This document shows, one piece after another, positions 2,004 to 55,365 of a stretch of DNA of 64,000 nt. The DNA is from Auriscalpium vulgare. Lineage: Eukaryota; Basidiomycota; Agaricomycetes; Russulales; Auriscalpiaceae. The DNA lies in assembly GCA_019915015.1 (NCBI GenBank), contig JAHBBC010000007.1, positions 124,001 to 188,000 of the forward strand, read 5' to 3'. Every line of letters begins with the position of its first letter. Positions within the stretch are counted from its first letter, which is position 1. Made by a program: the position numbers and the translations under genes. The notes under the pieces were generated by a model, which was not told where the DNA came from, searched no databases, and saw nothing but the letters and a program-made list of their open reading frames with translations.

Positions 2004-2983
2004 ACTACAAGTAAGACAATAATGCCCTATAATTGGGATCAATCGCAAGACACCACTCTCATTGTGTACTCGGATGTCCGACGCTGACCGTCAGGCACAT
2101 GTGAGGGCAGCGCCCCCGCGTTCTTTTCATCAACTTACGCGCTCATCGGCCGCCACCGCACGCAATTTTGCGAACAAAACGACGGGAACCCCGCGTGCGC
2201 TTCATGGTGTCGGGACGAGGATGAATTCATCCTGGCACAGTTTCAAGCGAACTTTGGTTAGGTGCGTCTCTTGATACCCTTCATACAAACTACTTGTATG
2301 CACTCCAATTGGCCATGCTACTAGGAGACAATAACTCCAATACGTCACGCAGTGTGCATTTAACTGCAAGCACACGAAACACGCCTGGCTTGTCAACAGG
2401 TGGTTTAGCACACCTCTACTTGGGGGCTCTTCCGCACCCGGACGTGGAGGGTGGCATACCCACCAGGTGGCACGAACACCTTGCTCGTGGCGAGGGTCCG
2501 CTTGAAAGGTATCTGAGAGATTTTCTGATACAGGAAACAGGCGACGAGACGACACTGCAGGGAAGTCGGCCGCTAAGCTAATGTATCTCAAGGATCCGAG
2601 ATCTTGCCTCCTTCGTTCGTATCGCGATCCGTGAATCCCTGCTGCGGTATCGCTGCAAGTGAATTCACGTCGATCCGGTTGTATAATCTGTATTGGTTCT
2701 GTTCGCCACGTTAATACCCACCTACACACTTGCTGACTGTCCATCCCTCCCCACCCGGATCCGAAGTTGCCAACCATCTTGCTGTTAGATGATCGGCTCT
2801 TTGTCGGTTCCCCGGCTTTCCTAGCGCCTGGCATATCTGCGCACCGAAAAGTGGTCCCTGCCCTTACGCCAGTTTCTCCGTCGGACTGGCGAGTTCTGCG
2901 ACGGAGCACATATTCACCCATGGTACTTAAGCACAGTAAGCCAGACCATGCCCCACAATCTCCGCTCCGACAACCCGCTCCTC
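2004..2983. other. Intergenic between carrier and reductase
   Basis: Holds the 3' side of the carrier gene and the promoter side of the reductase gene. A 239-codon open frame exists on the minus strand (2202-2921), but its product shows no recognisable domain and its start lies only 63 bases from the reductase start. I do not call it a gene. Confidence 0.5.
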
Positions 2984-4330
2984 ATGTCCATCACAACCGT
3001 TCTCGTACAACCAGACTCTCGTATCTCGTGGGCATAAGCTGATCTCGGTGTACCAGGTCACTGGTGCCTCCGGGTTTCTCGGCAGCCAAGTCGTCGATCA
3101 GCTCCTCGACGCAGGATTCTATGTGCGCGGGTGCGTCAATTGCACTCAGTACGCGGGCGTCTAACATAACGAACAGCCCTCATTAGAACAGCACGATCCA
3201 AGAGCGCGCCGAGAGTGAGCGCGAGCTATGAGCCGTTCGGCGACAGGTTTCGGACCGTCATCGTCGAGGACCTCGCCACATCCGACCTGACCGAAGCGTT
3301 CGAAGGTACCCCCCGCACTCGCCATCGACCCTCGCCATGCCTCACACTCTGCAGGCGTTGACGCTGTCATCCACGTCGCGTCCCCGATGACCCGCTCTGC
3401 CCCGCCAGACATCCTCATCAAGGTGAGCACCATGGCTCGCGCTGAACCCTTCATTCCGCCCAACCCGACCCGCACTGGCAGACCGCTGTCGTCGGCACGA
3501 CGCGCATCCTCGAGGCCGCCGTCGCCGCACACGCAAAGAAGGCCGTTATAACGAGCAGCATCGTCGCGCTTGCGACCCTCGAGCACCTCAGCACCTCCGT
3601 CACCATCGGCACAGATGGTACGCCCCGCGCAGTCCCGCATCACATGAGCCCCGTTCAATGCCCCGCTTCCAGACTGGAGCCCCCTGACGCACGAGGACGC
3701 GCTGCAGCCCGACGCGAGCGCGTCTCTCGTCTACGCCGCCTCCAAGGCCCTCGCGGACCGCGCCGCCTGGGCGTTCGCGCAGGGGCACCCGGCGCTCTCC
3801 GTTACGTCCAGTGCGTCCTCCCGCGCACCCCGCTGACCGCGCAGCTGACCTCACGAAACGCGCGCACAGTCTATCCGCCGCTGATGCTCGGACGCGCCGG
3901 GCGCGGGTACGCCATCGACGCGCCCGCGAGCGGGACGAACGGCATGGTATACGCGCTAGTTTCCGGCCCGGCGGGCCGAACGGTCCCCGCAGTGCGTGCC
4001 GCCGTCGGCACGTTCCTCAACGTTGCGGACGCCGCGCGCGCGCACGTCAACGCGCTGCAGCTGGCAGGCGCGCCCACGCGCATCATCCCGAACGCGGGGG
4101 AGTACAGCTGGGTGCGCGCGGTGCGCCACCTCGCGGCGCGCCGGCCGGAGCTGAACGCGCGCCTGCCTGTGGTGGAGGGTGATGGCCCGCCGATGCCGGC
4201 GCACGCGGTCTTCGACAATAGCTCGGCGAAATTGGTGGGGTTCGGGGAGTACATCAGCTTTGAGGAGACAGTGGAGGCAGTCGTAGACGAGGCGCTCAGG
4301 AGAGAGGAAGAGTTGGGCCTTACGTCTTGA
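2984..4330 (+). CDS. NAD(P)-dependent extended SDR reductase
   Basis: A 338-residue protein of the extended short-chain dehydrogenase family (dihydroflavonol-4-reductase / aldehyde-reductase branch), which reduces carbonyl groups with NADPH. The substrate cannot be told from sequence. Seven exons: 2984-3004, 3057-3130, 3187-3305, 3355-3422, 3482-3617, 3673-3810, 3870-4330; they sum to 1017 nt in one frame. The N-terminus MSITTVLVTGASGFLGSQ holds the glycine-rich Rossmann motif. ITSSIVA is the usual strand before the active site and YAASK is the catalytic Tyr-x-x-x-Lys. The tiny first exon (7 codons) fixes the start because it joins directly onto the Rossmann strand. No signal peptide is seen, so the protein is probably cytosolic. 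Confidence 0.88.
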
Positions 4331-4509
4331 AGCTTGAAAGCCTGCATATGTATGGAGTGATGCAAGGTTTTTGTATCAGCCATGCCATTATTATTCGCGG
4401 TTTGTATGCCTGGCTGCTCTATACGTACACACCACGTACCGCGACAACTGCCGATCATAGCAACAGCACACACCAAGAAAAAAAGATGCATTACAATTAC
4501 ACGCACAAC

Positions 4510-6880
4510 CTACAAATCGATCAATAATGCCTCCTTCTTCTCCGTCTGCTCAACATGTGCCGGATAGCCCGTGTACGCGGCCGGCGGCGCGGTCGGGACC
4601 GCGGGGAAGCTCGGCAGCGGCGTCTGGGCGGGCGGGAGCGCGACGGAGTTGTGGCGCGCGAGTGTCGCGTTGATGGGCGGCGTGGGCGCATGTGCGTGGA
4701 TGGGCAGTGTGGAGTAGCGCGCCGGCGCGTAAGACGTGTATTGCACCTGCGCAGGTGGGGACTGCGCGCTGGGGGTCGAGACCGGCGCGTACGATGTCGG
4801 ATTGTACTGCACCTGCGCGGGCGGTGGGGATTGCACGATGGGGGTCGCGGCCGGCGCGGAGGAAGGCTGCGGGGTGCGGGAACCAAAGGCTGAGGGGGCG
4901 CGGGGGCCAAGGGCTGAGGGGCCACGGACTGGTACTGGGTAGGCGAGTGGCTGGGCCCGGGGCTCGTCGGTGCGTACCCGTTTGCCTGCGGTGCGTACGA
5001 CTGCGGCTCCGCATACTGGGGCCAAGCCTGCTGAGGTGGCGCGTAAGCCTGTGGCGGCGCGGGGGCGTAGCTCGACGACGCGATGGGCTGTGGTGAGTAC
5101 TGGGGGTGGGCGGATACGGGAGGCTGTTGTGCAGCCCATTGAGGCTGCGCGTATGCTGGCTCGGGAGGTGCTTGCTGTTGCGCGTAAGCTTGTTGTGAGC
5201 GCCACGTCGGCCGCGAGAGCTGCTCCGTGAGGATCTTGTCGTACAGCTTCACGGCTTGCGAGAGCTTGTTGTTCATCTCCGTCAGCAGCTCTACCAATGG
5301 GGATACAGGGGTGAAAATTTGGTCCGGACCAAACCGCGAAAGAAAGACATACCTTCCTTTCGACCTGTGTCATCCAGACTCATTGCCAGCTTTGGCCGCA
5401 GAGTGTTCGCGTTATCGAACAGCTGCGTGACGGCAGGATATCGCGAGATGTCGCGCCCGCCTTGCGCCTGCACCTGCTCGACCGTCTGACTGAACGTCAA
5501 GATTGTATCTGACTCCAGAGGAGCCAGGTCGTAGTTCGGAAGTGTGGGCAGCGAGGGCTGCGACTGGACGTTCGTCGGCGGGTACGACTGAGAGTACCCG
5601 GCGCCGGCGTAAGAGAACTGGGGCTCCTCGACGCGAGGGGTCTCCAGACCAATGGGTGCACTGGGCTTCGGCGCATTTGCCTCGCGCAGGCTCGCTTCAA
5701 TCGCCGCCTTCAGATCGGGGTCGTCCTCCTCGTCTGCAGCTCGGGCGGGCGGGCGCGAGCTGCGCTCGACCAAAGGAGGCTCTGAAGTGTGCCACGAGTC
5801 TGGCTGCGATGGGACGTAGCCTGGTCGCCCGTGCTCGCCACGCCCGCTAACCTCTTCTAATGACAATTGGATTGCGCGCTGTAGCTCGGCATCAGCGAGA
5901 TCGCGCGCTGATCGGTGATGGAGATTCGGGACGCTGTGGGAGGACCGGTGGCGCTTGGTGTCCGCTCCCAACCTGTTGAGCGTGAGCAGACGTAAAGCAA
6001 AAGGAGACGGCAACGCACGCATTGTCTCGTGATTTTGTCAATTCAGGATAACACCAATCACAAACTCTGACCTCCTGCGTGATGCCGAAGTGTGGAAGGG
6101 GAAGGGCCTTTGCGGAGCACTTCTGGTCGAACACGCGTCCGCAGTTGCGACAGTGGTGTTTTCGGTTGGTGAACGAGAAGGGATCCCGACACTTCAAGCA
6201 CACGTCCGAATCAATCCATTCTGGGGCAGTCTTCGTGTCGACCATCGCGGTACTCGCCACGACAAGCGCCTCAGGAGGGAAGTTGAATCCTGCAGACAGT
6301 GAGTCTAGGGACATGATGGGGTAGGCGGGTCTCACCTTCGCTCTTCAGGGTTTTGTAGACTTGGCCGACATAGCTGAGCGCTGGCTTCCCTTCTAGTGCC
6401 AATGACCACGTCTGAATGTAACGGAGAGTCTTGTCCTTCACGTCTCGGTTGAGGGTTGGGATCTTCAGGATGGAGACGAGATTGTCCATGAACTCTCGTG
6501 ACGTGACTTCGACGAGAAAATGGTCACCCCCGTTCTTGATGCATATGTCGGTGAGCTATAAGCTCGACGTGTCAGCAGGCGAGCGGCTGTAGGACGGACG
6601 CGACGCACGCTCAGTGCTAGGAGCTGGACGTTGGGGTTCTTGTGGTTCAGACGACGCTTGAGGGCACGCATGGCATCCTTTGGTGGGACGCTCTTCGAGC
6701 GAATTTGGTCGCATATTTCGAGATTCAGGGCCATGTCCTCTGTGCCCGTTGGCATCAGCTCGGAGGTGGCCTTGTCTAAAGCAGCCGCCGTCAGTATATT
6801 GCGTCGACGGCGAGACGGCGGGGCTCACCAATAGCCTCGTCCACCTGGGTGGACCCCCATAGCCAGTTGGTGAGAGACAT
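4510..6880 (-). CDS. VPS27: Vps27-like ESCRT-0 subunit (VHS-FYVE-UIM)
   Basis: Endosomal sorting protein that binds PI3P and ubiquitinated cargo and starts multivesicular-body formation. Order from the N-terminus: VHS domain beginning [21 protein letters not shown] finger with [10 protein letters not shown] and the PI3P-binding [12 protein letters not shown] 1 ([16 protein letters not shown]); UIM 2 ([15 protein letters not shown]); a helical GAT-like segment around [10 protein letters not shown] and [18 protein letters not shown]; a long Gln/Pro/Ala/Tyr-rich tail; and a C-terminal clathrin box LLIDL before the stop. Short introns interrupt the gene (for example 6776-6828). The tail changes frame at a C run on the coding strand (4871-4874). 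One extra base there joins the PQPLVPAP part to the [10 protein letters not shown] part and keeps the composition constant, so a missing base is likely. It is divergent from RPB1, with 647 bases between the two starts. Confidence 0.88.
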
Positions 6881-41431: not shown

Positions 41432-42893
41432 ATGGCTTATTACCAGAATCTCAACACACAGCAGCAGTGGGAGGGAGACGTCCCCGCCGCGGACGCGTCG
41501 CTGCTGTGGCCAGTCGATGACTCCTTCGATGGCAGTGGCACAGGCGGCAACTTCAACAACGGCGAGGCAGACACTCTCTACGGGGGCATCCCAGCCCCCA
41601 CGGATCTCAGCTTTGCGCCGGGACCAGCCCCAGCGGCGTATCAACCCGCTCGCCACGGGGCCGACCTCGAAGGTCAAGCTGGACATAACGTTCACACCGT
41701 GAGTGCGATGTACATGGGTTGTAGTCTGTTCGCTTACCATGGCCGCTGTCGTAGTTCCCCTCCGGGATCCAGAACGGCTATGTCTTCAGTCCGACGTCTC
41801 TTGCTGCGCAGCACTACACCAACGCCACTGCACAGTGGGTTTACGGCCCCGCGCCATACACTGCCGCTGCGCCGATGGCCATGACGCAGACGTTCGCACC
41901 AGCGATGCTTCCACCGCATTGCAACGTCAGTATCTGCCATTTGTCACCATAGATTGACCACTCACATATCTCCTACAGCAGTACCAACCCACTAGCGTCA
42001 ACAATGCGGCGCCCGCGTGGTATCCCGATGCCGCACCGTCCATGGCTGCCTCGTCCTATGGGCCGCCCGTCCCCGCGCACATCGACCCGCGTGTGATCGC
42101 CCCGTTGCCCTCACGCTACACATCGCCGGGGTCGTCGAGGTCTTCAAGGTCTCCGATCACGCCGACAGGCATGGCGCCCTACCCACCCGTCGGTGTCCTT
42201 TTGACGCCGCCGCTCACCCCCAGCTACGGCAAGCAGCCAATCCTGGCATACAGTCCGAAGGGGGGACACTACCTGGGCCCACAGGGGTCCTACGACACGC
42301 GCTTCCCGTACAACAACCACGCGGCCGTTACGGCCACAACCGACGTCAACGGCGCAACATGGCCGCTGACACCTCCGGATCCGACCGTAGTTGCGCCTTC
42401 GCCTGCAGCTAGGGTACCCCGGAGGAAGTTCCACGAGCTCGGAGATGACGAGCCTACCGCAATATCATCGCAGGCGAAGAAGAGGAAGGTGGAAGAGTTC
42501 AGGGTTGAAGACCGCGCGGGCCCTCGTGAGGGGGCCCAACCGCGCGCAGGCAAGGCCCTGACAAAGGAAGATCATAGATCCAAGACGAGCGGCCGCGGGC
42601 ATGGAAGCCGCGCGGCCATCAACGGTCCAAGATATCTATCACCATCCTCCGCAGGGCCTAGTGCCTTGCCGTCAACAGGAGGATTGGGGTTGAGGACCAC
42701 GCCGTCTTGGACGGGGGAGAAGCAGCCGATGCTGACCAATAGTGAAGTAAAGAGTGGGGAGGTGGGGATGGCGATGGGGAAGGTGGAGAAGGGGACTGTG
42801 ACGGTGCAAGAAGACCAGGTACCCGTCAACAACACGCGTGGGGCAAAGGCGAAGAGGTCTACTGGTCGCCTCTCCTGCAAGGTCCCGCTGTGA
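41432..42893 (+). pseudogene. Zinc-finger gene copy 2, 5' part, split by LTR element
   Basis: Exons 41432-41698, 41755-41925 and 41979 onward parallel copy 1 closely (start MAYYQNLNTQQQWEG). The reading frame runs into the retrotransposon LTR and stops at its third to fifth bases (TGTGA supplies TGA, 42891-42893), just before the first zinc finger. The truncated product would keep the disordered region and the basic cluster QAKKRKVEEF but lose both fingers. Its variable region (about 42760-42850) differs from copy 1 in length and sequence. Confidence 0.88.
42884..42888. repeat. Target site duplication, left
   Basis: CCCGC directly before the 5' LTR. The same five bases follow the 3' LTR at 55366-55370. 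Confidence 0.9.
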
Positions 42894-43489
42894 CGGATGT
42901 CAAGGACGCGTAGGCGAGAACGGTAGTATCAGCGCAAGAGGACAGTAGATCGGTAGTCAGTAGATTAGATAGATCGGACTTTGAATTAGCTTGTATGTAT
43001 TTAAACTCGATTAGCACTGACATCGATCATTCATATATACAACGTGTCTTTTCTTTTCTCTTTTTCGTCGTCTCGTCTTTCTCTTTTCCCTTCGTCTCTC
43101 CTCTGAAGAACAAGAAGTCGCTAGACGACTCTCAAGATCGACGACGCGACGACGCGACAAGTCACGCGCGCCCGCGGCTTCGTGAGCGCTAGAGCGCGCC
43201 CACAGAACCACACTCGCGCAACGTACTTGAGCCGTCAGCGCTTCGCCCTTCTCTCTCTCGAGCCCGTCACCAGGAGGAAGCCTCCTACCGACTGGGCTCC
43301 CGCTTGGGCTCCACGCCTACGAGCGTGACGCGAGATCTTCTCGCCCTCCATCCTTCCGTGCTCGAAGGAAGTCTGTCAACACGAGGAAGCCTCGTACCGA
43401 CAGGACTGCACACCTTTGGTTCCTCCTCGAACCCGTCTCTCCCTCGTCCTACCTCCGAATCTCGAGACTCTCTCAACAGAGGCGTCTCA
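42889..43489 (+). repeat. 5' LTR (601 bp)
   Basis: Begins TGTGACGGATG and ends GGCGTCTCA. It contains a TATA-like TCATATATAC at 43031-43040 followed by a long pyrimidine tract (43048-43100), a plausible promoter/start region. Two tandem-like units in the second half each contain a GAGGAAGCCTC hairpin followed by TACCGAC (43272-43286 and 43381-43395). Confidence 0.95.
43031..43105 (+). promoter_or_regulatory. Putative LTR promoter
   Basis: TATA-like TCATATATAC with a roughly 50-base T/C-rich tract after it. In fungi such tracts often mark transcription starts, so this would set the U3/R boundary. The same sequence is in the 3' LTR. Confidence 0.5.
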
Positions 43490-43557
43490 AAGGTGGACAT
43501 ATCCGGAATCCGTAGGACACGAAGACCGGTTCAGTGGAATCAATTTTCAAGGGCAGC

Positions 43558-46500
43558 ATGCCGCTGCCAGACCAAAGTTACATGCAGACTCCGTCCAGAG
43601 CTGCGACTTTGGATTACTCTTTCACTCCTAGACGAACAGGAGAGGTGAAACCTCAGTCTCGACCCCCGCCTGCGCCGCACGCTGAAGATGCCGACTTGGA
43701 CAGTGCTTCTCGAGCTGAGATCGCAGAAGGTATCTACGCTAGATTCAGGACGCCTCCCGATGACTACGAACCGTCGCTAGAATCACGCGTCGAAGCCTTG
43801 ATTGGAGCCCCACTGTCGAATAAATACATCTTGAGAGACGGACCCTTGTTGCCCGTAGGGTCCGAGCAATATTCTCTGAAGTCTAACGCACTGTGGCCGG
43901 CTATTGGTGTAATATCGGATCTACAGGACTTACTCGCCCAACTCTATGCGTTACTGGATCCCCCCAGACCTAGCTACGTTATTGATTACGACAATCATCT
44001 CATAGTCGCTCTACGGGGGACCCGTACATTGAACGAACTCGACTTAGCTTGGGAAATTCTCGCTCAACGACTTTCTCTGGCGGTTCGACACATAGAAAAG
44101 GCGCGTGAGGAAATCGTGGGTTCAGTCAGGATCGCTTCCCCGGCGACCACCTCTCGGTCAGAAACGAAACGGATCGACGGGAGCAATACTCTCAACGCTC
44201 TTAAGGAATACTTGCAACGGCCGGCTCTGCGTGGACGCATAGACCAGTTCATCCTGGAACTGCTACAGACGAATGCGCAGGCCTTACCTCATGAATTATG
44301 GCCTCTTCCGGACAATTTTCTCGACGAAGTCATAGCCGCGGAATCCGAGCCACCTCCTAGAACTCTGGCTCCTTCTCCTCGTCAAGTTACTCTTACGACC
44401 CCACCTCGTGTACGAGGCGTGTCTGAGGAAGCCTCAGATCAGGGAAATAAGGGTAAAGGAAAAGGAAGAATGACGGAGGATACGATGGAGGAAGAACCTA
44501 CTAGATACGAAAGTTTCGCTGTAGGAGCTGCCGGAAGACCTCGCTCTTCTCTACCTGCACCTTTATATCTTCAAGGAGCAGAACACCCTCCGTTTCGCAA
44601 AGCCGGAGAATTCTTTGAGCAAGTCAACAAACCATCGTCTTCGTATGTGTCGCAAGTCTTACCGTACACCCCGCTGCGCACGGTCGCTCAGCCAATTATC
44701 GCTCAAAGCGATGTTACTCAAGGGCTAGGACTTCCTGGAGACATCCCAGGATCGGATCCTCTCCCTACTGGGGTCCGGAACGTCGCAGAAGAAACACACG
44801 CGCACACGAATCTGGAGACAGGGACTTCCTCTAGAGAAGTGGCTACATACCTCGCTCCTGAGGGATACGCGGACAACGGGAACATTTCGGCCATGCCATA
44901 TAGAAGGAACTTATACTCTAAACATTCCGCGCAACCCGCGTTCTCCTTAGCGGCCATGGGAGTAGAAACTCAACACATAGCAAATCTGGATCGTCAGACT
45001 CCGCCGCACCTACGAGGGACGACAAGAGTTGACCCCGCTGACCATGTCACGCGAGCCGAACGTACGGTCAATTTCGATGAGCGAGTGCCCTGGGATAAAC
45101 GACTCGCTAAAGACAACGGAGAGCACTCCCATCCTGGCCCTTCAACTTCTCTTCCTCTAATCAAAGGAGAATGGCCCCGTAACTCGCCCATACATTCTGA
45201 CGGACGGAATCACACTCCACCGTGGGGCAGTAGTTTCCCCTTTACCTCTCGGCGGGATTTAGGTGTAAATAACCCTCCTTCGAAACCTGATCCTCTTCCC
45301 GAAGAACCTTCGAGAAACCTTCCGGGTTATAATCCCTCAGCGGGACAACCGAGCGGAGGCGCACCCGGAGGAGGACCTCCGAATTGGCCTCCCTTCGGAG
45401 GAGGAGGATCGGGAAATGGACCTTCAGGTGGACCACCAGGATTTCCGGGCGGAGGGCCGCCCGGCGGGTTTCCTGGGATGCCTGGAGGAGGAGGAGGATA
45501 TTATGGACCACCGGGAGGTGGAGGTCCGCCTGGGGGATACCCAGGAATGCCCGGAGGAATGCCTCCGGGTGGACCTTACGGACCGCCAGGAGGTGGAGGA
45601 CCGCCCGGCGGAGGTGGAGGACCACCCGGCGGAGGTGGAGGACCGCCTCCTGGTTGGGGTTTACCCTGGCAATGGTATGGATTCCCGCAAGGCAATCCAA
45701 ATATGGGTCCACGACTGAAGGAGGAATTACGACCTGATCATTTGCCGAGCTGGGACGGAAATAAGCTCACGGCTATAGCGTACTTCGCAGACGTCCAAGA
45801 ACTCGCTATGATGAATGACTCCTTGCCCGCGGCTATGGGACGTTGGCTATGGACCCAATTGACCGACAATTCGCGGGTGAAGAAGTGGTGGATTCAGGTG
45901 TCTAGGCGCATGAAGGCCTATATGATGACCAATCATCTGAATTGGCTCAATGGACTCAAGTCCGTATTCTTGGGCCGACAGTGGCAGCTAGAGCGAAACA
46001 TGGAATTTACGGAAATGTTCTTCCGGCAAAAGGGCCACGAACGGGAAATGCCAGAAGACTACCTTCAACGCCGTATCATGTACGCGCGAGCTCTTTTGAA
46101 CACGGACTTGGGAGGTCCCGAAGAAGCTCAAATCGTTATTCGCAACGTACCCTCTAGTTGGATGACTACGCTCAACGTTCCATTGCCGCAGAGTACAGAT
46201 GATCTTACGCAGCGAGCCCAAGACAATGCTCTCGCTCTAATCGCCGCCTCCCGCAGTACTAGTGACCTAGTGTCTAAAGATGAGATACCGCAGCTGATTC
46301 GGCAAGCTATTCGTGAGGAAAACGCCAGACCATTTCGCCCCAGAACGTTTCGCAGCCGCCCCAATAGAGGGCAAGCTTCTGTACATCTCGCGTCGGGCAA
46401 CGGAGAGGAAGCCGAAGAAGTCGATTTTCCGATAATAAATGAAGACGATGAGGAAAATCTTAACGCTCCGGACGAAGTTGACCCTGCGGTAACCGCGCAG

Positions 46501-49500
46501 GTCTTCGCCACGCTAGTCAAGCGGCAGAGAGCTCCTCCGAAAGGAGGTTATCCGTTTCCCAAGGCTGACGGGACAAAGTCTCTGATAAAGCCACCTCCCT
46601 CGCCGTGCAAGCTGTGCGGAAGTAAGCACCATTGGGATAAAGAGTGTCCTCATTGGCCGACTTACGCGAAAAAGAGAGAGGTCAACTTGTTGAGTGCAGG
46701 GTTAGAAACGGATAGGACCCCCGAGGATGAGCTCATGTATAATACTTTGTATGAGTCTTACCTAATGGAAGCGATTTCTTCCGCTTATATCGTTGCTCGT
46801 GAGCGTGCGTGTTCGGAAGCCGAACACGAGACTAGAGGAAGTGACTCTAGTAAACGAGGTAACGAGGACGAACAAGAAGCTCCGACGAGGAGAGAAGTGC
46901 TGACGGCACACGCTCGAGGAAGCCTCGAGAATGTTGTGCGGAGGCCTTCTCCTTCAGTGGAAGAGATCGAAGACGAGTATTATGTTCAGCTACGACAGAA
47001 CGGAGGATCCAGTCCCAGAGACGGGGGTCTGATGGAAGAGGTTGAAGCGTTGCAGGCGGAGACTCCGGAGCTGGAGACCATTAAATTGAAGAGGAAACGC
47101 ACCTCTATTCCAGGAATGTCAGCTGTGGGAGTGTCCGTAGTGTCCATGAGAGGCCAAATCATGGCTCCGACCGGGCCTATATGCGATTTACGGTTGGACT
47201 CCTGCGCGGACATCTCGCTTCTCTCTAAGGCTACATACGATCAATTGGTTAATCCGCCTGCTCTAAGACAAGGATTGAAGTTAAAACTTGTGCAATTAAC
47301 GGCTAAGGAAGCATCTTTACATGGATACGTCATGCTCCCCATTTACGTTCGTACCGTCGACGGGAGAGAACTTCAATTGGAGGTGGAAGCCTATGTAGTA
47401 TCTAATATGTCCGTGCCTATCCTCTTGGGAGAAGACTTTCACCAAGCGTACGAGTTAACGGTGGAGCGAAGTTTGGACGCTGGGACCAGGGTATACTTCG
47501 AAGGGAGAAAATACGAAGTTCTAGCTGAAGGAGTTCATGGCTCAAGCCGTAAAGAAGTTCATGTCGCTAAGAGAGTACTGGGAGCTCCACTAGCTCGCTT
47601 TATTCTGGCAAAGACGCATCGCCGGAACAAAGCAAAAAGAAGAGCGCTGAGGAAGGATGCGGAAGGACCGCGAAATGTACGAGTTATAGAGGAAGTCAAA
47701 ATTCCCCCGCATTCAGTCAAGCGAGTTCAAGTAAACGCTAGCTTCACGGACGAGCGGACTTGGATGGTAGAGAAAACCATGGTTGCGTCCTCCAGAAACC
47801 CGACTTTCGTGGTCCCCAATGTTCTCTTAAATCAATCTTCTCCTTTCATCCCAGTGGCTAATACGTCGTCACATCCCAAAATTCTTCGAAAGGGCGAAGT
47901 GATCGGGCGACTAGTAGACCCAGCCAAGTTCCTCGATGTTCCCGAGAACGCTGAAAAACTGGAAGCGTTGGTGGGACATGCGAAATTAGTCAAGCAGCTA
48001 GTTGAAGTCAATATGACCCTACAGTCTGCTGGACATTCGATGAAAGCTGAAAAGGAACCCGAAGGGCCAGCGGAAGCCGTTGAGCCAGAACCTCCGGAGG
48101 AGGAGATTTGGGGACCTAAGACAGCTGAAGTTCCGGACCCTACGGTCTGGCCGTCGCGAGACATGCAGGAACTGCTGGATGTAGGACAATTGCCCGAAGA
48201 ACTCAAGGAGCGAGCCTGGGAAATGTTACGACGACGTCAACGAGCCTTCGGGTTCGATGGAAGATTGGGAAAGCACCAATCGAGAGTTCATATCCGTACT
48301 GTGGATGGTCAAGTACCTATAGCGGTGCCTATGTATGGAAGTTCTCCTGCCAAACGCATGGTGATAGAGGACCAACTTAACGCGTGGTTCGAACAAGGCG
48401 TTATAGAGCCCTCTATTAGTCCATGGAGCGCGCCGGTCGTCATCGTTTATCGGAACAACAAACCTCGATTCTGCGTGGATTACCGAAAGCTTAACGCAGT
48501 CACTGTGCCGGATGAATTTCCCATTCCGAGACAGTCTGAAATTCTCGCTTCGCTTTCTGGGTCACAAGTTTTGTCTTCCCTGGACGCTCTTGCAGGATTT
48601 ACCCAACTGGAAATGGCTCCCGAGGACGTGGAGAAGACAGCATTCCGTACACACAAAGGATTGTTTCAATTCTTGAGAATGCCCTTTGGATTACGAAACG
48701 GACCTTCCATTTTCCAGCGAGTAATGCAAGAAGTTTTGTCTCCCTACCTCTGGTTATTCTGCCTGGTATACATCGACGACATAGTGGTATATTCGAAAAG
48801 CTATGAAGAACATATCGATCACCTTGACAAAGTTCTGGAAGCTATAGAGAATTCCGGAATCACCCTCTCCCCTAAGAAGTGTCATTTGTTCTACAGTTCT
48901 ATCATTCTACTCGGACATAAAGTCTCTCGTCTAGGTTTGTCAACGCACAAACAAAAGGTGGAAGCCATCTTGAAAATGGCGAGACCCTCAAAGGTAGCGG
49001 AACTACGTACGTTCTTAGGCATGGCAGTATACTTCTCGGCGTTTATACCGCATTATGCGACTCTGGCGACTCCCTTATTTTCACTTACTCGTAAGGGTGC
49101 GGCTTGGAACTGGCGTGCGGAACATGAAAGAGCTTTCGAGGAAATCAAAAAGGCTCTGTCGTGTGCTCCCGTATTGGCGCATCCGGAGATGGGGAAGCCC
49201 TATCGATTGTACACGGATGCCTCCGGAGAAGGGTTAGGAGTTACCCTGCAACAAGTGCAGACGATGGTACTCAAGGATTTGAGAGGAACCCGAACATACG
49301 AGCGCGTTCGTCGCGCATACGAATCCGGGAAGCCAGTTCCGAAGCTCACCACTACATTGTCCCCCAAAATCGCGGATTGCGGTCTTACTGGCTCATGGGG
49401 AGAAACTCTGGAGGATACGGTCGTGCAAGTGGAAAGGGTGATAGGATACTGGAGTCGAACTTTCAAGCCGGCCGAACGGAACTATTCTGCCACGGAGAGA

Positions 49501-51645
49501 GAAGCTTTGGCCGCTAAGGAAGGATTGGTGAAATTCCAGCCGTTCATCGAAGGGGAACAAATCCTGCTAGTCACCGATCATGCCGCGTTGCAGTGGGCTA
49601 AGACGTACGAAAACAACAATCGACGGCTAGGTGCTTGGGGAACGGTCTTCTCGGCGTACGCTCCAGGTCTAGAAATTGTACATCGGCCAGGACGCGTTCA
49701 TTCCAACGTTGATCCTATTTCTCGTCTGCTCGAGACTGTCCCTGACTACGTAACTCCAAATGAGGAGGAATCCCCAGCTCTAACGTTAGCTGGCATGACG
49801 GACACTTCGCTGAAAGGGAATTCAATTACGGAGTTGACGAAGTCAGCGCAATTGGTGCTCACTGATTGGAACGACAGTCTGATGAGTTCGCCTCATAATT
49901 GCTTTCAAGTCACCACGCGATCTTACAAGGCCAAAAGCGCTGTCAATAAGAGCGAAGACTCTGTAATTCCCCAGGAGAGAGTTCCGGTAACGGAACCGGC
50001 TTCGGAAGCCGAAGCCACGCTGGGAGACGTATCACGGCGAAAGGAGAATCTTGACTTATACGATCGTCAAGTAGCCTGGGAGAAAAACAATCCTCCTCCC
50101 ACCATTCACGTGCACATGGACGAAAGTTATTTGCAATCCTTTTTGCAGGGATATAAAGCGGACGCCGCTTTTAAGCAGAGATGGGAGAACACTTCTCAAT
50201 CCCCAGATACCTGGGACGCAGGACAGAGATACTTCAAAGACGAGAAAGGACTGCTGTACTTTCGAGACGCGGATTTTCAACCGCGATTGTGTGTGCCCAA
50301 ATCTTTGCGAGCAGGACTACTACTCCAAGCTCACGAGTCCCCTTTTGAGTCCGCCCACGCGGGCGCCGAAAAGTTGTGGCAGCTGATGAATGGGAAATTC
50401 TTTTGGCCTTCGATGCGGAAGGACGTTCAGAGATTCTGCGATACTTGCGACGTATGTCAGAAAGTAAAACACCGGAATTTCACGAAATTTGGACGTCTTA
50501 TCCCAAACCCGGTGCCGCGACGACCCTACGAGTCTGTTTCTCTGGACTTAGTCACGGGCTTACCGTGGTCCTCGGAATCCAACGCCGTGTTAGTAACGGT
50601 GGATAGAATGTCCAAGCACGCGCAATTTATACCTACGACCACGGGACTGACAGCAGAGGGATTCGCCAAACTTTTCGTGAATCATGTTGTTTGTAGATTT
50701 GGCGTGCCGGATAACATAGTCTCGGATCGCGATCCACGGTGGACTTCTGATTTCTGGAAGGGAGTCGCTAAGGCTCTGAGAACGCGGATGTCCCTATCCT
50801 CCTCACATCATCCTCAGCACGATGGACAGACTGAAATTGTGAATCAGAAGTTGGAAATCATGTTGCGTGCTTATGTAGCCACGGATAAGACTAGCTGGGC
50901 TGAATGGCTCCCTTTGTTGGAACACGCATACAACAACCTGCCTCATTCATCCACTGGTCTGAGTCCTCATTTCGTGCTTTACGGATTTCAGCCGAAGTCC
51001 AGCCTCGATTTCGGAAAGGCGGAAGGAGCGGAAGCCGCTCCCCAAGACGCACTACTCAATGGTCGAGCGGACGATTTCGTGCGATTACTCCAGTATCATA
51101 GGGAAAGTGCGAGGATAGCTCTCGCACGAGCACAGCTGAAACAAAGCGAATCATACAATAAAGGCCGGAGAGAGCTAGAATTCCGCGTAGGAGACCAAGT
51201 CCTGGTCAACCCTCACTCCTTGGAATGGATCGAAAGTCGGGGCGAGGGCAGCAAACTAATTCAACGCGCAGTGGGGCCGTTTGAAGTACAAGAGCGTATT
51301 AATCCTAAGGTGTACCGCTTGCGGTTACCCGACAACTACCCTGGGTCGAACGTGTTGAATCTAGAACATCTACGCCTATATAAGCCTTCTGACGCGGAAT
51401 TTGGTCATAGAACAGTCTTGCCTGACACTCGCCTGGAGAAGCCAGCTTCTGAAGAATATCAAGTCGAAAAGATAGTGGGTCACCGATACGACAAGCAGAA
51501 GAAACAGATGATGTATCTAATACGATGGGAAGGATACTCGCCATTATATGATTCTTGGGCCTCCGCGACGGATCTGCGCAACGCTCCTCAGCGATTGTTT
51601 TCTTATCGACGGGACGCGGGACTTGCTGGCCCGGCTCGACACTGA
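43558..51645 (+). CDS. Gag-Pol polyprotein of chromovirus
   Basis: 2,695 residues in one frame without a Gag/Pol stop or shift. The first ATG gives MPLPDQSYMQTPSRAATLD. Gag: disordered N-terminal part, a Gly/Pro-rich stretch (residues of about 590-710; GGPPGG-type repeats), a capsid-like helical region (WNGLKSVFLGR-like NGLKSVFLGRQWQLERN) and a canonical CX2CX4HX4C knuckle (CKLCGSKHHWDKEC, about residue 1016). Protease: LDSCADISLLS (about 1214), with Cys in place of the usual Gly. RT: FCVDYRKLN, LDALAGFTQL and YIDDIVVYS (about 1737). RNase H: YTDASGEGLG (about 1886). Integrase: HHCC zinc region ending CDTCDVCQK, then LDLVTGLP, SDRDPRW and DGQTEIVNQ (D,D,E). Chromodomain: YQVEKIVGHRYD to YLIRWEGYSPLYDSW (about 2632-2683), predicted to guide integration to particular chromatin. 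No inactivating change is seen except that the protease variant is atypical. Confidence 0.96.
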   Translation: MPLPDQSYMQTPSRAATLDYSFTPRRTGEVKPQSRPPPAPHAEDADLDSASRAEIAEGIYARFRTPPDDYEPSLESRVEALIGAPLSNKYILRDGPLLPVGSEQYSLKSNALWPAIGVISDLQDLLAQLYALLDPPRPSYVIDYDNHLIVALRGTRTLNELDLAWEILAQRLSLAVRHIEKAREEIVGSVRIASPATTSRSETKRIDGSNTLNALKEYLQRPALRGRIDQFILELLQTNAQALPHELWPLPDNFLDEVIAAESEPPPRTLAPSPRQVTLTTPPRVRGVSEEASDQGNKGKGKGRMTEDTMEEEPTRYESFAVGAAGRPRSSLPAPLYLQGAEHPPFRKAGEFFEQVNKPSSSYVSQVLPYTPLRTVAQPIIAQSDVTQGLGLPGDIPGSDPLPTGVRNVAEETHAHTNLETGTSSREVATYLAPEGYADNGNISAMPYRRNLYSKHSAQPAFSLAAMGVETQHIANLDRQTPPHLRGTTRVDPADHVTRAERTVNFDERVPWDKRLAKDNGEHSHPGPSTSLPLIKGEWPRNSPIHSDGRNHTPPWGSSFPFTSRRDLGVNNPPSKPDPLPEEPSRNLPGYNPSAGQPSGGAPGGGPPNWPPFGGGGSGNGPSGGPPGFPGGGPPGGFPGMPGGGGGYYGPPGGGGPPGGYPGMPGGMPPGGPYGPPGGGGPPGGGGGPPGGGGGPPPGWGLPWQWYGFPQGNPNMGPRLKEELRPDHLPSWDGNKLTAIAYFADVQELAMMNDSLPAAMGRWLWTQLTDNSRVKKWWIQVSRRMKAYMMTNHLNWLNGLKSVFLGRQWQLERNMEFTEMFFRQKGHEREMPEDYLQRRIMYARALLNTDLGGPEEAQIVIRNVPSSWMTTLNVPLPQSTDDLTQRAQDNALALIAASRSTSDLVSKDEIPQLIRQAIREENARPFRPRTFRSRPNRGQASVHLASGNGEEAEEVDFPIINEDDEENLNAPDEVDPAVTAQVFATLVKRQRAPPKGGYPFPKADGTKSLIKPPPSPCKLCGSKHHWDKECPHWPTYAKKREVNLLSAGLETDRTPEDELMYNTLYESYLMEAISSAYIVARERACSEAEHETRGSDSSKRGNEDEQEAPTRREVLTAHARGSLENVVRRPSPSVEEIEDEYYVQLRQNGGSSPRDGGLMEEVEALQAETPELETIKLKRKRTSIPGMSAVGVSVVSMRGQIMAPTGPICDLRLDSCADISLLSKATYDQLVNPPALRQGLKLKLVQLTAKEASLHGYVMLPIYVRTVDGRELQLEVEAYVVSNMSVPILLGEDFHQAYELTVERSLDAGTRVYFEGRKYEVLAEGVHGSSRKEVHVAKRVLGAPLARFILAKTHRRNKAKRRALRKDAEGPRNVRVIEEVKIPPHSVKRVQVNASFTDERTWMVEKTMVASSRNPTFVVPNVLLNQSSPFIPVANTSSHPKILRKGEVIGRLVDPAKFLDVPENAEKLEALVGHAKLVKQLVEVNMTLQSAGHSMKAEKEPEGPAEAVEPEPPEEEIWGPKTAEVPDPTVWPSRDMQELLDVGQLPEELKERAWEMLRRRQRAFGFDGRLGKHQSRVHIRTVDGQVPIAVPMYGSSPAKRMVIEDQLNAWFEQGVIEPSISPWSAPVVIVYRNNKPRFCVDYRKLNAVTVPDEFPIPRQSEILASLSGSQVLSSLDALAGFTQLEMAPEDVEKTAFRTHKGLFQFLRMPFGLRNGPSIFQRVMQEVLSPYLWLFCLVYIDDIVVYSKSYEEHIDHLDKVLEAIENSGITLSPKKCHLFYSSIILLGHKVSRLGLSTHKQKVEAILKMARPSKVAELRTFLGMAVYFSAFIPHYATLATPLFSLTRKGAAWNWRAEHERAFEEIKKALSCAPVLAHPEMGKPYRLYTDASGEGLGVTLQQVQTMVLKDLRGTRTYERVRRAYESGKPVPKLTTTLSPKIADCGLTGSWGETLEDTVVQVERVIGYWSRTFKPAERNYSATEREALAAKEGLVKFQPFIEGEQILLVTDHAALQWAKTYENNNRRLGAWGTVFSAYAPGLEIVHRPGRVHSNVDPISRLLETVPDYVTPNEEESPALTLAGMTDTSLKGNSITELTKSAQLVLTDWNDSLMSSPHNCFQVTTRSYKAKSAVNKSEDSVIPQERVPVTEPASEAEATLGDVSRRKENLDLYDRQVAWEKNNPPPTIHVHMDESYLQSFLQGYKADAAFKQRWENTSQSPDTWDAGQRYFKDEKGLLYFRDADFQPRLCVPKSLRAGLLLQAHESPFESAHAGAEKLWQLMNGKFFWPSMRKDVQRFCDTCDVCQKVKHRNFTKFGRLIPNPVPRRPYESVSLDLVTGLPWSSESNAVLVTVDRMSKHAQFIPTTTGLTAEGFAKLFVNHVVCRFGVPDNIVSDRDPRWTSDFWKGVAKALRTRMSLSSSHHPQHDGQTEIVNQKLEIMLRAYVATDKTSWAEWLPLLEHAYNNLPHSSTGLSPHFVLYGFQPKSSLDFGKAEGAEAAPQDALLNGRADDFVRLLQYHRESARIALARAQLKQSESYNKGRRELEFRVGDQVLVNPHSLEWIESRGEGSKLIQRAVGPFEVQERINPKVYRLRLPDNYPGSNVLNLEHLRLYKPSDAEFGHRTVLPDTRLEKPASEEYQVEKIVGHRYDKQKKQMMYLIRWEGYSPLYDSWASATDLRNAPQRLFSYRRDAGLAGPARH

Positions 51646-51862
51646 ACAGCAGAGTTACCTTACTCTATATACTTTTTAATAAATTTCTAATAGCACGCCT
51701 ATCGCCTGACGCCGACAGCTTTGACTTGGGACGCGTCGCGTCACGGATCACGTGATTTCGCTTGGGCGCCATCACCTCGAGGCGCGCTTAGACGGAGAAC
51801 GGAGACCGCGTGCTCCTATCCTTTGTCTCGAACCACCATCCTCTTTGTCTTCCCGCATCAAC

Positions 51863-54769
51863 ATGTCGTCTTGGGCGCAACCTTTGCAAGGTTGGGGAGC
51901 GGAAGCCGCTCCCAAGCCCCCGCCGGCTGGTCATTTGAAGGAGATCGCGAAGCGTCGACGAGCGGGGAATCCGCACGCCATCTACGACAAAACGGTCTTA
52001 CCCTATCATGTGGTGACTTCAGGGGGGTACTTAGCGGACGTGTTCACATCGTCCGTGCCGGGTGTTCAATGGGTAGGATTCGGAATGGATCCGACACCGA
52101 GCGGACGCTCGCCGGTGCGCATGCCCTCGCGGACTCCTCTAAACGCTACCCCGCCCTTCAATTACCGAGCGGACGGACCAGATATTGCGGCGGAATGGTG
52201 GGATTACAAGCGCCCTTGGTTAGCCTACCGCCCTCTTCCAAATGACTTTACAAAAGCGGAATGGGTGTACAACGACGAGACAGATGGAAACGGCTTTGCG
52301 CGCGTCGGCCACGAGCGCTACCAATGCACCCCGACAGCTCTCAAATGGCTCACAGAATATTCCGCGAAAGTCATGCGGGTCGGCGAAGTCATGGCCAAGT
52401 ATCTCGCGTACGATGCCGTCCCCTTGCGTATACCCACCGTGACGGCTCTCCCGGCGGAAAAAGCGGACCTCAAGAAACAGCTTTCGTCCACTCGCAAGTC
52501 CATGCACGAGTGGATGGCGTTCGTCATTTTTCTCGCCACGCACGCTGGTCATGGTTGGGAAGCCATACCAGTGCCGGTAGCAGGTTGGGCAGATCTCGTG
52601 ATCCCCTGGCTTTCAGCCGAACGAGTAGGCACGCTGGTAGACTTTCACTTGCCCCGAGTCTCTTGGCCAGACATTCAAGAACTATACGTTCACGGCGCCA
52701 ACCCTCGGTATCTCTGGCACTACGCTCTCGATGTGCCCGAACTGACTGCCCTCGACCCGCGGAAATTGGGAGCTAAAGAAATCGCGGCGGTCGTGCGGGA
52801 AAGAGAGAAACGAATGCGGAAGTACGACAAGAACCTGACGAACTTGAAGAAGCGTACGAATGAGCTTCTGAGGAAGGATATGGTCACAGAAGTCAGCCAA
52901 GTACGCCGCTGGTTCGAACAGATGGACTCAGACGACCCCAAATCGCGACGAGTTGTTGCGGCGAAGCGAGTTCGAAACGGAGAGTTCATCGGCTGCGCAG
53001 TCAAACTCAACTTCCCAGAGCCAGGCGACGGCACGGTATTCCACGACGTCACTGACTTCGATATGCCAGCAAAAGGATGGGACGCAATCGCAGTTCCGGA
53101 TCACGATCGCGAGGACGAGGATGATTTCTTTGAAGATATCTACAAAGGAATTGATGGGCCCATGCGCCCTCCAGCATCTTCGCCCCCTCCTTCGGTGCAG
53201 GAATCTGTCGACGGACCAGTCGGGACCACTTCCGCGTCTAAAGGGAAGCAGAAAGCCAACTCCTCCGTCGTCTCTCCAATGCATGACCGTAGCACGCTCG
53301 ATGACGAGGACTCAGATCGCGAAGCAGCGGACATGCAAGAGGCCATCCAGGCATCTCTGCACTCCTCACACGTACGCCAAGGAGAAAGCTCGTCGAATCG
53401 CACCTTTCAAGATGTAGTCATGGCAGACGGCACTGGTACATCCAGTTCCGAGAAGAAGGATAGCTCTTCTTCGACTGCCAGGCCTACTTCGGACGATCTT
53501 GAACCGCGTGGGCGCAAACGACCTCGAGAGGATAGCTCTCTCGAGGGTGGATCGATGCAACGATCCCTTCTGGAGCGTCTAACGAGCTCTTCCCCTCAGC
53601 GCGATGACTCTACGCGATCGAAGGAGCCTGCGAGTGGTGCAACATTGCTAGCCAGATTGTCTCACGGAATGCATAGCGACGGACCACCGTCGTTATTGTC
53701 TCGATTAAACGTCGTTCCGTCAACGTCACTCATGGACAGAATATCGGAGCAAGTCGTCGTCGCTTCAGAAGAGAAAGAAGCGACGAGCAGCACTCAAAAT
53801 ACGACTTCCGCGCCCGAGCTCACGACAGCTTACGGGCCTGATTCTCCCTTACACGGTGTAGCCACGTTCGCAGCGGCGGTACTTCGTCCGGCGAATAAGC
53901 CTCTCTCCATTCCGCGTGTGTCTCCCATCATGAAGGGCCACATACATTTACTCTCAAGGTCTAAACTGCGCGTCGCAATCTGGCGGGACGCTTGTATGCT
54001 CCCATGGTCCGATGTAGTCGGTTTCATGTTGGGCAAAGGTATCGCATTCACATGGAGCTATCCAAGGAGCCGGCTTCCGCAGCCGATCCCTACGCTGCCC
54101 GAGTCTTGGACGGGCTACGCTCAAGAATCCAGTCATGTAGTCCGATGGTGGGAAGCACGGGCCAACATTTGGGACGCATATTTGGCCACAGTGCATGATC
54201 TTCTCACACAGCCCAACGCTCGGCTGTTTCTTCACATGGGAGGATTGGCGTGGCGCTTAGCCGTTCAATTTGGGTCGCCCGGTTTGCTTGAAGATGCGGC
54301 CAGAGGACCTTCTCGCTTGGTCACCGATTACGGTATTGGCGAGGCGACCACTGACCCGGTTCCCGGTCTCGTGGATAGTGGGAGCAAAGCGGACTTCGAC
54401 CGGCTGTTTGGCATGAAAAGCGGACGCAGTCTTTGGCCGCGACAGAAAGACTTTCTCGACAGTCGCGCGTGGAACGGCGAATGGTCATGGTCAAATGAAG
54501 TCTGGTTTTCTACTCGTCTCACCGCTCTGTCGTCGGCAAAGCGGGACGACAACTTGACCCCAAATCAGTGGTCGAGAGAGCTCCGCGACTCTCTTCGTCC
54601 CGCTGAGCGTCGCGCATTGAACGGTCCAGGTTCAGAAGTCCATGCAGAGGGCAAGATCAATGCCGACCCCGATATCGCCGCCCTGGGAATTCTCGACTTG
54701 GAAGCGCTACAGAAGTCTTGGGATATCAGTGTGTCGGCCTCTTCCGCTGAGACTGGGGGGGCTTTGTGA
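51863..54769 (+). CDS. Accessory ORF of retrotransposon, unknown function
   Basis: 968 residues, sense orientation, 217 bases after Gag-Pol, in the place where an env gene sits in some elements. It shows no signal peptide or membrane segment, so it is not an envelope. Start MSSWAQPLQGWGAEAAPK. A globular-looking N-terminal half contains Trp/Tyr-rich stretches (AAEWWDYKRPWLAYRP). A charged coiled coil follows (about residues 315-345; VREREKRMRKYDKNL). A UIM-like helix (ADMQEAIQASLHSS, about 485-500) sits in an acidic, Ser-rich region. Four short (S/T)LLxRL-like motifs lie between residues of about 565 and 630. The C-terminal domain has LFLHMGGLAWRLAVQFG and SLWPRQKDFLDSRAWNGEWS. The stop TGA lies inside the 3' LTR. 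I recall uncharacterised polypore proteins resembling the C-terminal part, but cannot verify this. Expression might come from read-through, an internal promoter or splicing. Confidence 0.85.
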   Translation: MSSWAQPLQGWGAEAAPKPPPAGHLKEIAKRRRAGNPHAIYDKTVLPYHVVTSGGYLADVFTSSVPGVQWVGFGMDPTPSGRSPVRMPSRTPLNATPPFNYRADGPDIAAEWWDYKRPWLAYRPLPNDFTKAEWVYNDETDGNGFARVGHERYQCTPTALKWLTEYSAKVMRVGEVMAKYLAYDAVPLRIPTVTALPAEKADLKKQLSSTRKSMHEWMAFVIFLATHAGHGWEAIPVPVAGWADLVIPWLSAERVGTLVDFHLPRVSWPDIQELYVHGANPRYLWHYALDVPELTALDPRKLGAKEIAAVVREREKRMRKYDKNLTNLKKRTNELLRKDMVTEVSQVRRWFEQMDSDDPKSRRVVAAKRVRNGEFIGCAVKLNFPEPGDGTVFHDVTDFDMPAKGWDAIAVPDHDREDEDDFFEDIYKGIDGPMRPPASSPPPSVQESVDGPVGTTSASKGKQKANSSVVSPMHDRSTLDDEDSDREAADMQEAIQASLHSSHVRQGESSSNRTFQDVVMADGTGTSSSEKKDSSSSTARPTSDDLEPRGRKRPREDSSLEGGSMQRSLLERLTSSSPQRDDSTRSKEPASGATLLARLSHGMHSDGPPSLLSRLNVVPSTSLMDRISEQVVVASEEKEATSSTQNTTSAPELTTAYGPDSPLHGVATFAAAVLRPANKPLSIPRVSPIMKGHIHLLSRSKLRVAIWRDACMLPWSDVVGFMLGKGIAFTWSYPRSRLPQPIPTLPESWTGYAQESSHVVRWWEARANIWDAYLATVHDLLTQPNARLFLHMGGLAWRLAVQFGSPGLLEDAARGPSRLVTDYGIGEATTDPVPGLVDSGSKADFDRLFGMKSGRSLWPRQKDFLDSRAWNGEWSWSNEVWFSTRLTALSSAKRDDNLTPNQWSRELRDSLRPAERRALNGPGSEVHAEGKINADPDIAALGILDLEALQKSWDISVSASSAETGGAL

Positions 54770-55365
54770 CGGATGTCAAGGACGCGTAGGCGAGAACGGT
54801 AGTATCAGCGCAAGAGGACAGTAGATCGGTAGTCAGTAGATTAGATAGATCGGACTTTGAATTAGCTTGTATGTATTTAAACTCGATTAGCACTGACATC
54901 GATCATTCATATATACAACGTGTCTTTTCTTTTCTCTTTTTCGTCGTCTCGTCTTTCTCTTTTCCCTTCGTCTCTCCTCTGAAGAACAAGAAGTCGCTAG
55001 ACGACTCTCAAGATCGACGACGCGACGACGCGACAAGTCACGCGCGCCCGCGGCTTCGTGAGCGCTAGAGCGCGCCCACAGAACCACACTCGCGCAACGT
55101 ACTTGAGCCGTCAGCGCTTCGCCCTTCTCTCTCTCGAGCCCGTCACCAGGAGGAAGCCTCCTACCGACTGGGCTCCCGCTTGGGCTCCACGCCTACGAGC
55201 GTGACGCGAGATCTTCTCGCCCTCCATCCTTCCGTGCTCGAAGGAAGTCTGTCAACACGAGGAAGCCTCGTACCGACAGGACTGCACACCTTTGGTTCCT
55301 CCTCGAACCCGTCTCTCCCTCGTCCTACCTCCGAATCTCGAGACTCTCTCAACAGAGGCGTCTCA
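54765..55365 (+). repeat. 3' LTR (601 bp)
   Basis: Same length as the 5' LTR, and I see no difference between the two on side-by-side reading. Its first bases provide the TGA stop of the accessory ORF. It ends GGCGTCTCA, directly before the duplicated target CCCGC. Confidence 0.95.

Follow-up and report, generated by a model that had tools for sequence, protein, structure and literature searches.

Multiple stem-loops that share one loop motif serve as packaging signals in RNA viruses, according to the passages covered (PMC5431903, PMC8472981); examples are the GxU loops of parechovirus (PMC5431903), the signals of MS2 (PMC8472981), and the RGAG loops of hepatitis B virus (PMC7612645). The way in which long terminal repeat (LTR) retrotransposons recognize the genomic RNA that belongs to them is poorly defined, and yeast Ty3 is no exception: its packaging sequences are termed not precisely defined in the part of the account that we covered, with the untranslated regions and POL required (PMC11381356). 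Here we describe a family of hairpins in a full-length Ty3/Gypsy chromovirus of Auriscalpium vulgare, at 42889-55365 of a 64,000-nucleotide (nt) stretch of contig JAHBBC010000007.1 (the window). The hairpins have variable stems, GG/CC closing pairs, and mostly an AAG loop. We are close to certain that they are a selected family of RNA structures, and not a product of codon usage or chance, because they exceed codon shuffles, their synonymous sites are conserved, and their stems show compensatory changes.

Abundance of the hairpins in the element

The element (42889-55365) contains 17 sense copies of the 7-mer GGAAGCC, which correspond to 15 distinct sites (two in each of the identical LTRs), and one antisense copy, at 54072. 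It is the top 7-mer of the element by excess, with 15 sites against 1.1 expected when one LTR is counted. The original prediction had reported 16 sense copies, a chance expectation below one, and no GGCTTCC counterpart of the same structure; the strong excess stands, and both figures change. At least 4 further pairs flank 13 of the 17 copies (11 of the 15 distinct sites) and give total stems of 6-9 pairs, so that the predicted flanking stems are present in one copy more than the 12 reported. The coding sequence in which most of these sites lie is organized as follows.

42889..43489, + strand: 5' LTR, 601 bp, TG...CA, with the CCCGC target duplication outside; identical to 54765-55365
43558..51645, + strand: gag-pol open reading frame (ORF), 2695 amino acids, with reverse transcriptase (RT), RNase H, integrase zinc domain, and chromodomain
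51863..54769, + strand: ORF2, 968 amino acids, downstream of integrase, extending 5 nt into the 3' LTR
54765..55365, + strand: 3' LTR, 601 bp, identical to the 5' LTR, with CCCGC on its outer side

When synonymous codons are shuffled, 1.10 copies of GGAAGCC are expected in gag-pol and 0.66 in ORF2, and the gag-pol count was reached in 0 of 400 codon-preserving shuffles; the 2 copies in ORF2 alone are unremarkable, as 50 of 400 codon shuffles reach that number. It had been argued that copies in several reading frames exclude a codon effect. The shuffles bear out that conclusion; the frame argument itself is weaker than claimed because 10 of the 13 coding copies share one frame (phase 2 in 10, phase 1 in 2, phase 0 in 1). 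GG-AAG-CC accounts for 11 of the 33 sense-strand triloop hairpins of at least 6 pairs in the element, with each remaining type represented by a single hairpin, and the most frequent type on the + strand of the rest of the window accounts for 3 of 159. In gag-pol, GG-AAG-CC hairpins number 8 against 0.13 in codon shuffles for this element's family (family A) and 6 against 0.14 for a sister family (family B, described below), with 0 of 400 shuffles reaching either count. ORF2 holds one in A against 0.03 (11 of 400 shuffles) and one in B against 0.02 (8 of 400). The comparison with codon-preserving shuffles had been set beforehand as the test that could overturn the family, and the excess held. 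Four GGAAGCC sites without stems (46407, 47385, 49328, and 52558) were rejected as members of the class, as B lacks the 7-mer at all but 49328, where most copies retain it with pairing through its two GG/CC pairs only.

A scan of all loops revealed related hairpins beyond AAG. Loops of ACG or ATG (50162), AATG (45558), and AGGG (45453) occur, as do G:U-closed loops of ATAGC, ATGGC, or ACAGC at 51115, 53460, and 53532. The original prediction had overlooked these loops in the element. We defined a wide class as GG-A-N(1-2)-G-CC or GG-ANNGC-TC with at least 6 pairs. Compared with codon shuffles, family A has 12 such hairpins against 0.74 in gag-pol and 3 against 0.06 in ORF2 (15 against 0.8 in total), and family B has 11 against 0.65 and 3 against 0.09; 0 of 500 shuffles reached the count in any of the four ORFs. 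The antisense strands of all four ORFs contain none, and neither strand of the remaining 51,505 bases of the window, the region scanned for single hairpins, contains any. The wide class was defined after A and B were seen, so its counts are descriptive, and the conservation of its added loops (ACG, AATG, AGGG, and ATAGC) between the two families is not an independent test. The AAG core is independent in this respect, since nine AAG coding hairpins were listed before any B sequence. The coding hairpins are listed below, with compensated changes given as pairs.

44421..44439, + strand: site 44429, GTCTGAGG-AAG-CCTCAGAT; in B CCCGAGG-AAG-CCTCGGG, two compensated pairs (U-A to C-G twice)
45445..45464, + strand: site 45453 in gag, CCGGGCGG-AGGG-CCGCCCGG, identical in A and B
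45548..45571, + strand: site 45558 in gag, AATG loop, core CCCGGAGG/CCTCCGGG
46808..46828, + strand: site 46817, CGTGTTCGG-AAG-CCGAACACG; in B ATGGTCGG-AAG-CCGACCAT, two compensated pairs (U-A to G-C and G-C to A-U)
46913..46929, + strand: site 46920, CTCGAGG-AAG-CCTCGAG; many B copies have an AAA loop
48068..48082, + strand: site 48074, CAGCGG-AAG-CCGTTG; in B CGACGG-AAG-CCGTCG
48955..48971, + strand: site 48962, AAGGTGG-AAG-CCATCTT, stem without variation
49188..49204, + strand: site 49195, GATGGGG-AAG-CCCTATC, stem without variation
49998..50016, + strand: site 50006, GGCTTCGG-AAG-CCGAAGCC; in the C5 copy GGCATTGG-AAG-CCGATGCC, one compensated pair (U-A to A-U)
50155..50171, + strand: site 50162, AAAGCGG-ACG-CCGCTTT; loop ATG in B and the C5 copy
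51025..51041, + strand: GGAGCGG-AAG-CCGCTCC, stem without variation
51107..51127, + strand: site 51115, GTGCGAGG-ATAGC-TCTCGCAC; in B GCGCGAGG-ATGGC-TCTCGCGC, one compensated pair
51895..51913, + strand: near the ORF2 start, GGGAGCGG-AAG-CCGCTCCC, stem without variation
53452..53472, + strand: site 53460 in ORF2, GAAGAAGG-ATAGC-TCTTCTTC
53522..53546, + strand: site 53532 in ORF2, CCTCGAGAGG-ATAGC-TCTCTCGAGG

Conservation and covariation between sibling families

The assembly from which the window derives comprises 51.6 Mb in 96 contigs, and family searches were made within that genome. A search with the RT gave 144 matches: family A (n = 6) at 98-100% identity, family B (n = 22) at 95-96%, a partial copy, C5 (n = 1), at 94%, family C (n = 1) at 67%, and the remainder at 30-38%. 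Families A and B share 83% of gag-pol residues, and only 72-85% of their DNA is identical over most stretches compared. One copy, L021 (C1:914988-927148), combines LTRs and RT of the B type with a stretch that is A-type (98%) where 46700-47050 would lie, and looks like an A/B recombinant.

Degenerate codons for identical residues differ between A and B gag-pol in 56.5% of cases. Such codons changed in 9 of 77 cases within the 15 hairpins, in 120 of 205 within other A hairpins, and in 1433 of 2459 elsewhere. Matched codons predict 45.6 changes where 9 were observed, and the lowest of 200,000 simulations was 27; in the nine AAG coding hairpins, 5 of 40 codons changed. Chance and codon usage are ruled out as the cause by the matched-codon test together with the codon shuffles. 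Conservation of hairpins in general can also be eliminated, because the other A hairpins lack it.

The stems point the same way. Across 16 sites and 118 pairs, 98 pairs are invariant, 8 are compensated, 7 are changed on one side and still paired, and 5 are seen only as broken, each of these in a single copy (the stem at 51115 is broken in two single copies). Excluded from the tally were paralogous rows at the two LTR sites, segments that were cut off, and, at 45557, rows that lack AATG; one piece of C5 (L079) gave no match at 44429 and another (L080) is absent from the compared rows, and copy C58 (L045/L046) matches from 47386 onward only. Uncompensated stem changes in related elements, named beforehand as the other result that could overturn the family, did not do so, and changed stems mostly still pair. 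Most hairpins of the family keep their positions in B. Counting hairpins of all kinds, A and B share 25 positions in gag-pol where shuffles give 10.8 (the maximum in 60 being 18) and 8 in ORF2 where they give 2.6 (maximum 6), one ORF2 place being counted twice.

Template switching during reverse transcription can produce matching changes in both arms of an inverted repeat, and could in principle have perfected these stems without selection. Such a process should, however, perfect any loop, whereas GG-AAG-CC is found 11 times and each other triloop type only once, and the shared gag-pol hairpins outside the class number 13 (with 45639, a candidate taken up below, placed in the class), the null for all hairpins being 10.8. 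We find this explanation hardly credible.

Two further structures were noted in the same comparison. Directly upstream of the 51895 hairpin, 51878-51894 reads CAACCTT-TGC-AAGGTTG in A and CAACCAT-CGT-ATGGTTG in B, a compensated change. At 48263-48281, GATTGG-GAAAGCA-CCAATC is the same in A and B and lies within 9 consecutive unchanged codons.

Folding, strand, and the LTR units

With 150-nt flanks, the mean stem probability is at least 0.91 at 16 of 19 places, with lower values at 45639 (0.00), 51115 (0.00, and 0.96 with 60-nt flanks), and 48962 (0.84). The candidate at 45639 has the loop AGGA in A and AGGG in B. It is omitted from the list above because of its stem probability in A, and is still counted in the spacing test. 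Hairpin clusters are spaced 829-1712 nt apart with a coefficient of variation of 0.236, and the simulated probability of such even spacing is 0.0003 at a cluster gap of 250 nt, 0.0007 at 300 nt, and 0.0022 at 160 nt. The even spacing is suggestive only, because 45639 was included and the cluster rule was chosen once the map was known.

By eye, comparing hairpin places with Pfam limits, many clusters of 43558-54769 sit in linkers between protein domains, as they might if the hairpins slowed ribosomes at domain boundaries during translation. The module is also present in the untranslated LTR, however, and 49195 falls within an RNase H domain. Moreover, pausing needs no single loop, and the other hairpins lack synonymous conservation (120 of 205 codons changed). 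A role in translation is therefore very unlikely.

A function at the level of DNA (a cruciform, a structure in complementary DNA, or a site for a DNA-binding protein) is a further alternative. Summed over all sites, allowing A.C adds as many pairs as allowing G:U or more (18 against 17 in A, 36 against 12 in B), as a DNA-level function would allow. This total arises because the LTR internal loops are built of A.C mismatches, apart from a single C.C that family A has in unit 1. Read on the opposite strand, the A.C mismatches become G.T wobbles, so the LTR alone cannot fix the strand. Outside the LTR, 3 coding stems in A and 2 in B reach 6 pairs only through a sense G:U, against 1 and 0 through A.C; the single A.C-dependent case lies between the gag hairpins 45453 and 45558. 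In addition, three ANNGC hairpins are closed by a sense G:U. The coding sites thus favor sense RNA and the LTR is neutral, and we give a DNA-level function little credence. The prediction that two stems need a G:U pair, and that this points to RNA, is right in kind for the coding sites, with three such stems rather than two, and does not extend to the LTR.

Each LTR carries two units of the module.

43260..43300, + strand: LTR unit 1, outer stem, 3x3 internal loop, inner stem AGGAGG-AAG-CCTCCT
43369..43409, + strand: LTR unit 2, architecture as unit 1, inner stem ACGAGG-AAG-CCTCGT; in family B ACGGGG-AAG-CCCCGT
55136..55176, + strand: LTR unit 1, 3' LTR copy
55245..55285, + strand: LTR unit 2, 3' LTR copy

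The compensated pair by which the two units were said to differ (AGGAGG/CCTCCT against ACGAGG/CCTCGT) is present. A genome search with a 27-base pattern of the unit (up to 3 mismatches) gave 137 matches, and the reversed pattern used as a control gave 0. Among the 100 matches listed, 96 form 48 pairs spaced exactly 109 nt apart and 4 are single, the last match listed among them. The spacer between the units holds indels, yet the 109-nt distance is constant in all 48 listed pairs. The units have a covariation score of 0.280 against a shuffled mean of 0.137 (0 of 500) and 0.012-0.091 when slid. For the whole-stretch LTR alignment, the observed and shuffled values are 0.083 and 0.043 for covariation, 2 and 1.0 for changed pairs, and 4 and 4.3 for pair types.

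Candidate partners and comparison with known systems

The element has the marks of a chromovirus: its identical 601-bp LTRs have TG...CA ends and a short target duplication (CCCGC on both sides), and RT, RNase H, integrase, and a C-terminal chromodomain lie in a single polyprotein (Pfam), with the rve match below the curated cut-off and the remaining gag-pol domains above theirs. Relatives of the Gag-protease-RT region in the protein database number 70 and are 25-46% identical; a search of viral contigs for relatives gave none. ORF2 matched no Pfam family in a domain search and has one database relative, in Auriscalpium vulgare at 52-54% identity. Its predicted structure is too poor for use (AlphaFold mean predicted local distance difference test score 28.7).

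Family C (16.5 kb), whose LTRs are identical over 404 bp, contains 2 sense and 2 antisense copies of GGAAGCC and no excess of AAG hairpins, and its ORF2 has no BLAST similarity to that of family A. A distinct arginine/serine-rich ORF takes the place of ORF2. Four distant Ty3 elements of the same genome likewise show no excess of GGAAGCC, AAG hairpins, or triloops. Over the three families compared, the putative hairpin code is one that tracks the type of ORF2 rather than the Gag knuckle. Other hairpins were observed in these elements. The pol of family C (L041, L042, reverse strand) has three perfect triloop hairpins of 8-9 bp with loops CCC, GCC, and CGC (3 against 0.62 in codon shuffles, 0 of 100, from one copy only), and both of its LTRs have a 10-pair hairpin with an ACACC loop; perhaps these are a code of its own. 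The distant element L057 has 5 perfect hairpins of at least 7 pairs with 7-nt loops, against 0.59 (0 of 100 codon shuffles).

The near-fixed loop on free stems, the presence in the leader and the genes, the selection on RNA, and the restriction, within this genome, to one clade suggest a set of sites bound by a single protein. A code that would be read for packaging or by Gag is plausible, and packaging is the best-known use of such site sets in the passages covered (PMC5431903, PMC8472981). We put at roughly one half the probability that the hairpins are dispersed binding sites for one, probably element-encoded, protein that marks genomic RNA for packaging. The genomic RNA would carry about 20 copies of a short module, a variable stem topped by GG/CC pairs with a loop of A-N(1-2)-G (mostly AAG, at times AAA) or a G:U-closed ANNGC. 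A single RNA-binding protein of the element, either the nucleocapsid region of Gag or the ORF2 product, would be the candidate reader. Bound jointly to the 15 internal sites and the pair of LTR-leader units, it may mark and condense the full-length genomic RNA for packaging.

A host RNA-binding protein acting in nuclear export, stability, localization, or silencing could be the reader instead. Many proteins that read stem-loops would suit a short loop on free stems, and the sites span the whole transcript, including both LTRs. However, family C and the four distant Ty3 elements lack the excess of GGAAGCC or AAG hairpins, and the wide class is absent from the other 51.5 kb of the window, to which the single-hairpin scan was limited. 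A motif restricted to a single clade is better matched by a partner from that clade, and we regard a host protein as improbable, though worth keeping in view.

Several observations count against an element-encoded packaging code or against strict conservation of the hairpins. The third loop position holds A at two sites (46920 in many B copies, 48074 in three A copies), so the loop G is not essential. Hairpin 51115 has no local fold at 150- or 300-nt flanks, the stem at 48074 is broken in one A-type copy (L014/L043), 50006 was matched in no B copy in the A/B copy comparison, and the 44429 stem is shortened to 5 pairs in L049 (RT locus L020), a B copy with an intact frame. The support for even spacing is weaker when clusters are defined more tightly, with a 120-nt gap (P = 0.017). 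LTR pairs changed on both sides (4 of 14 against 2.8 shuffled, 114 of 500) and LTR pair types (6 against 7.1, 494 of 500) show no excess over the shuffles, and these two counts behave alike in the whole-stretch LTR alignment. The Gag knuckle has 14 of 17 residues in common between family C (CKVCGSAKHWDKECPHW) and family A (CKLCGSKHHWDKECPHW), yet C lacks the hairpins, so the loop must depend on more than the knuckle. Finally, an older review, in the part covered, describes nt 429-4979 of yeast Ty3 as dispensable when proteins are supplied in trans (PMC4974528).

A broader and more tentative proposal is that LTR retrotransposons can encode their identity throughout their genomic RNA, in a code that a protein of the element would read and that would direct particle assembly and separate sibling families through lineage-specific loops. 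Here the clusters would recur roughly every 1 kb from the leader through all of the genes, and family C may use C-ending loops. In any case, the element offers a concrete set of sites supported by covariation and synonymous conservation, with family C as a natural negative control and natural loop and stem variants at hand.

No Rfam family was matched (a lone weak match, mir-648, had E 0.87 and 22.4 bits against a gathering score of 84), and we found no published repeated-hairpin family in LTR retrotransposons among titles and the starts of abstracts, a coverage outside which most subscription journals fall. Like the packaging and dimerization leaders of Ty1 and Ty3, the genomic RNA has a structured 5' leader. 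The Ty3 dimer site is a palindrome in the passage covered (PMC11381356), whereas the AAG loop is not self-complementary, and kissing-loop dimer sites were rejected as AAG, AAA, ACG, ATG, AATG, and AGGG are not palindromic. The Ty1 and Ty3 leader accounts name no genome-repeated hairpin in the passages covered, whereas the hairpins here repeat along the genome. Alphavirus genomic RNA, as described in the part covered, likewise has many sites for capsid binding, located by crosslinking rather than by sequence evidence as here (PMC7499256). In what we covered, a close likeness is to dispersed viral packaging signals, in which many short stem-loops along the genome combine varied stems with one short, strain-conserved loop motif. 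The element has several stem-loops along its genome with one loop motif, and their structure is conserved among families of one genome. It differs in being an LTR retrotransposon and in having a tighter loop and closing pairs at 15 coding sites.

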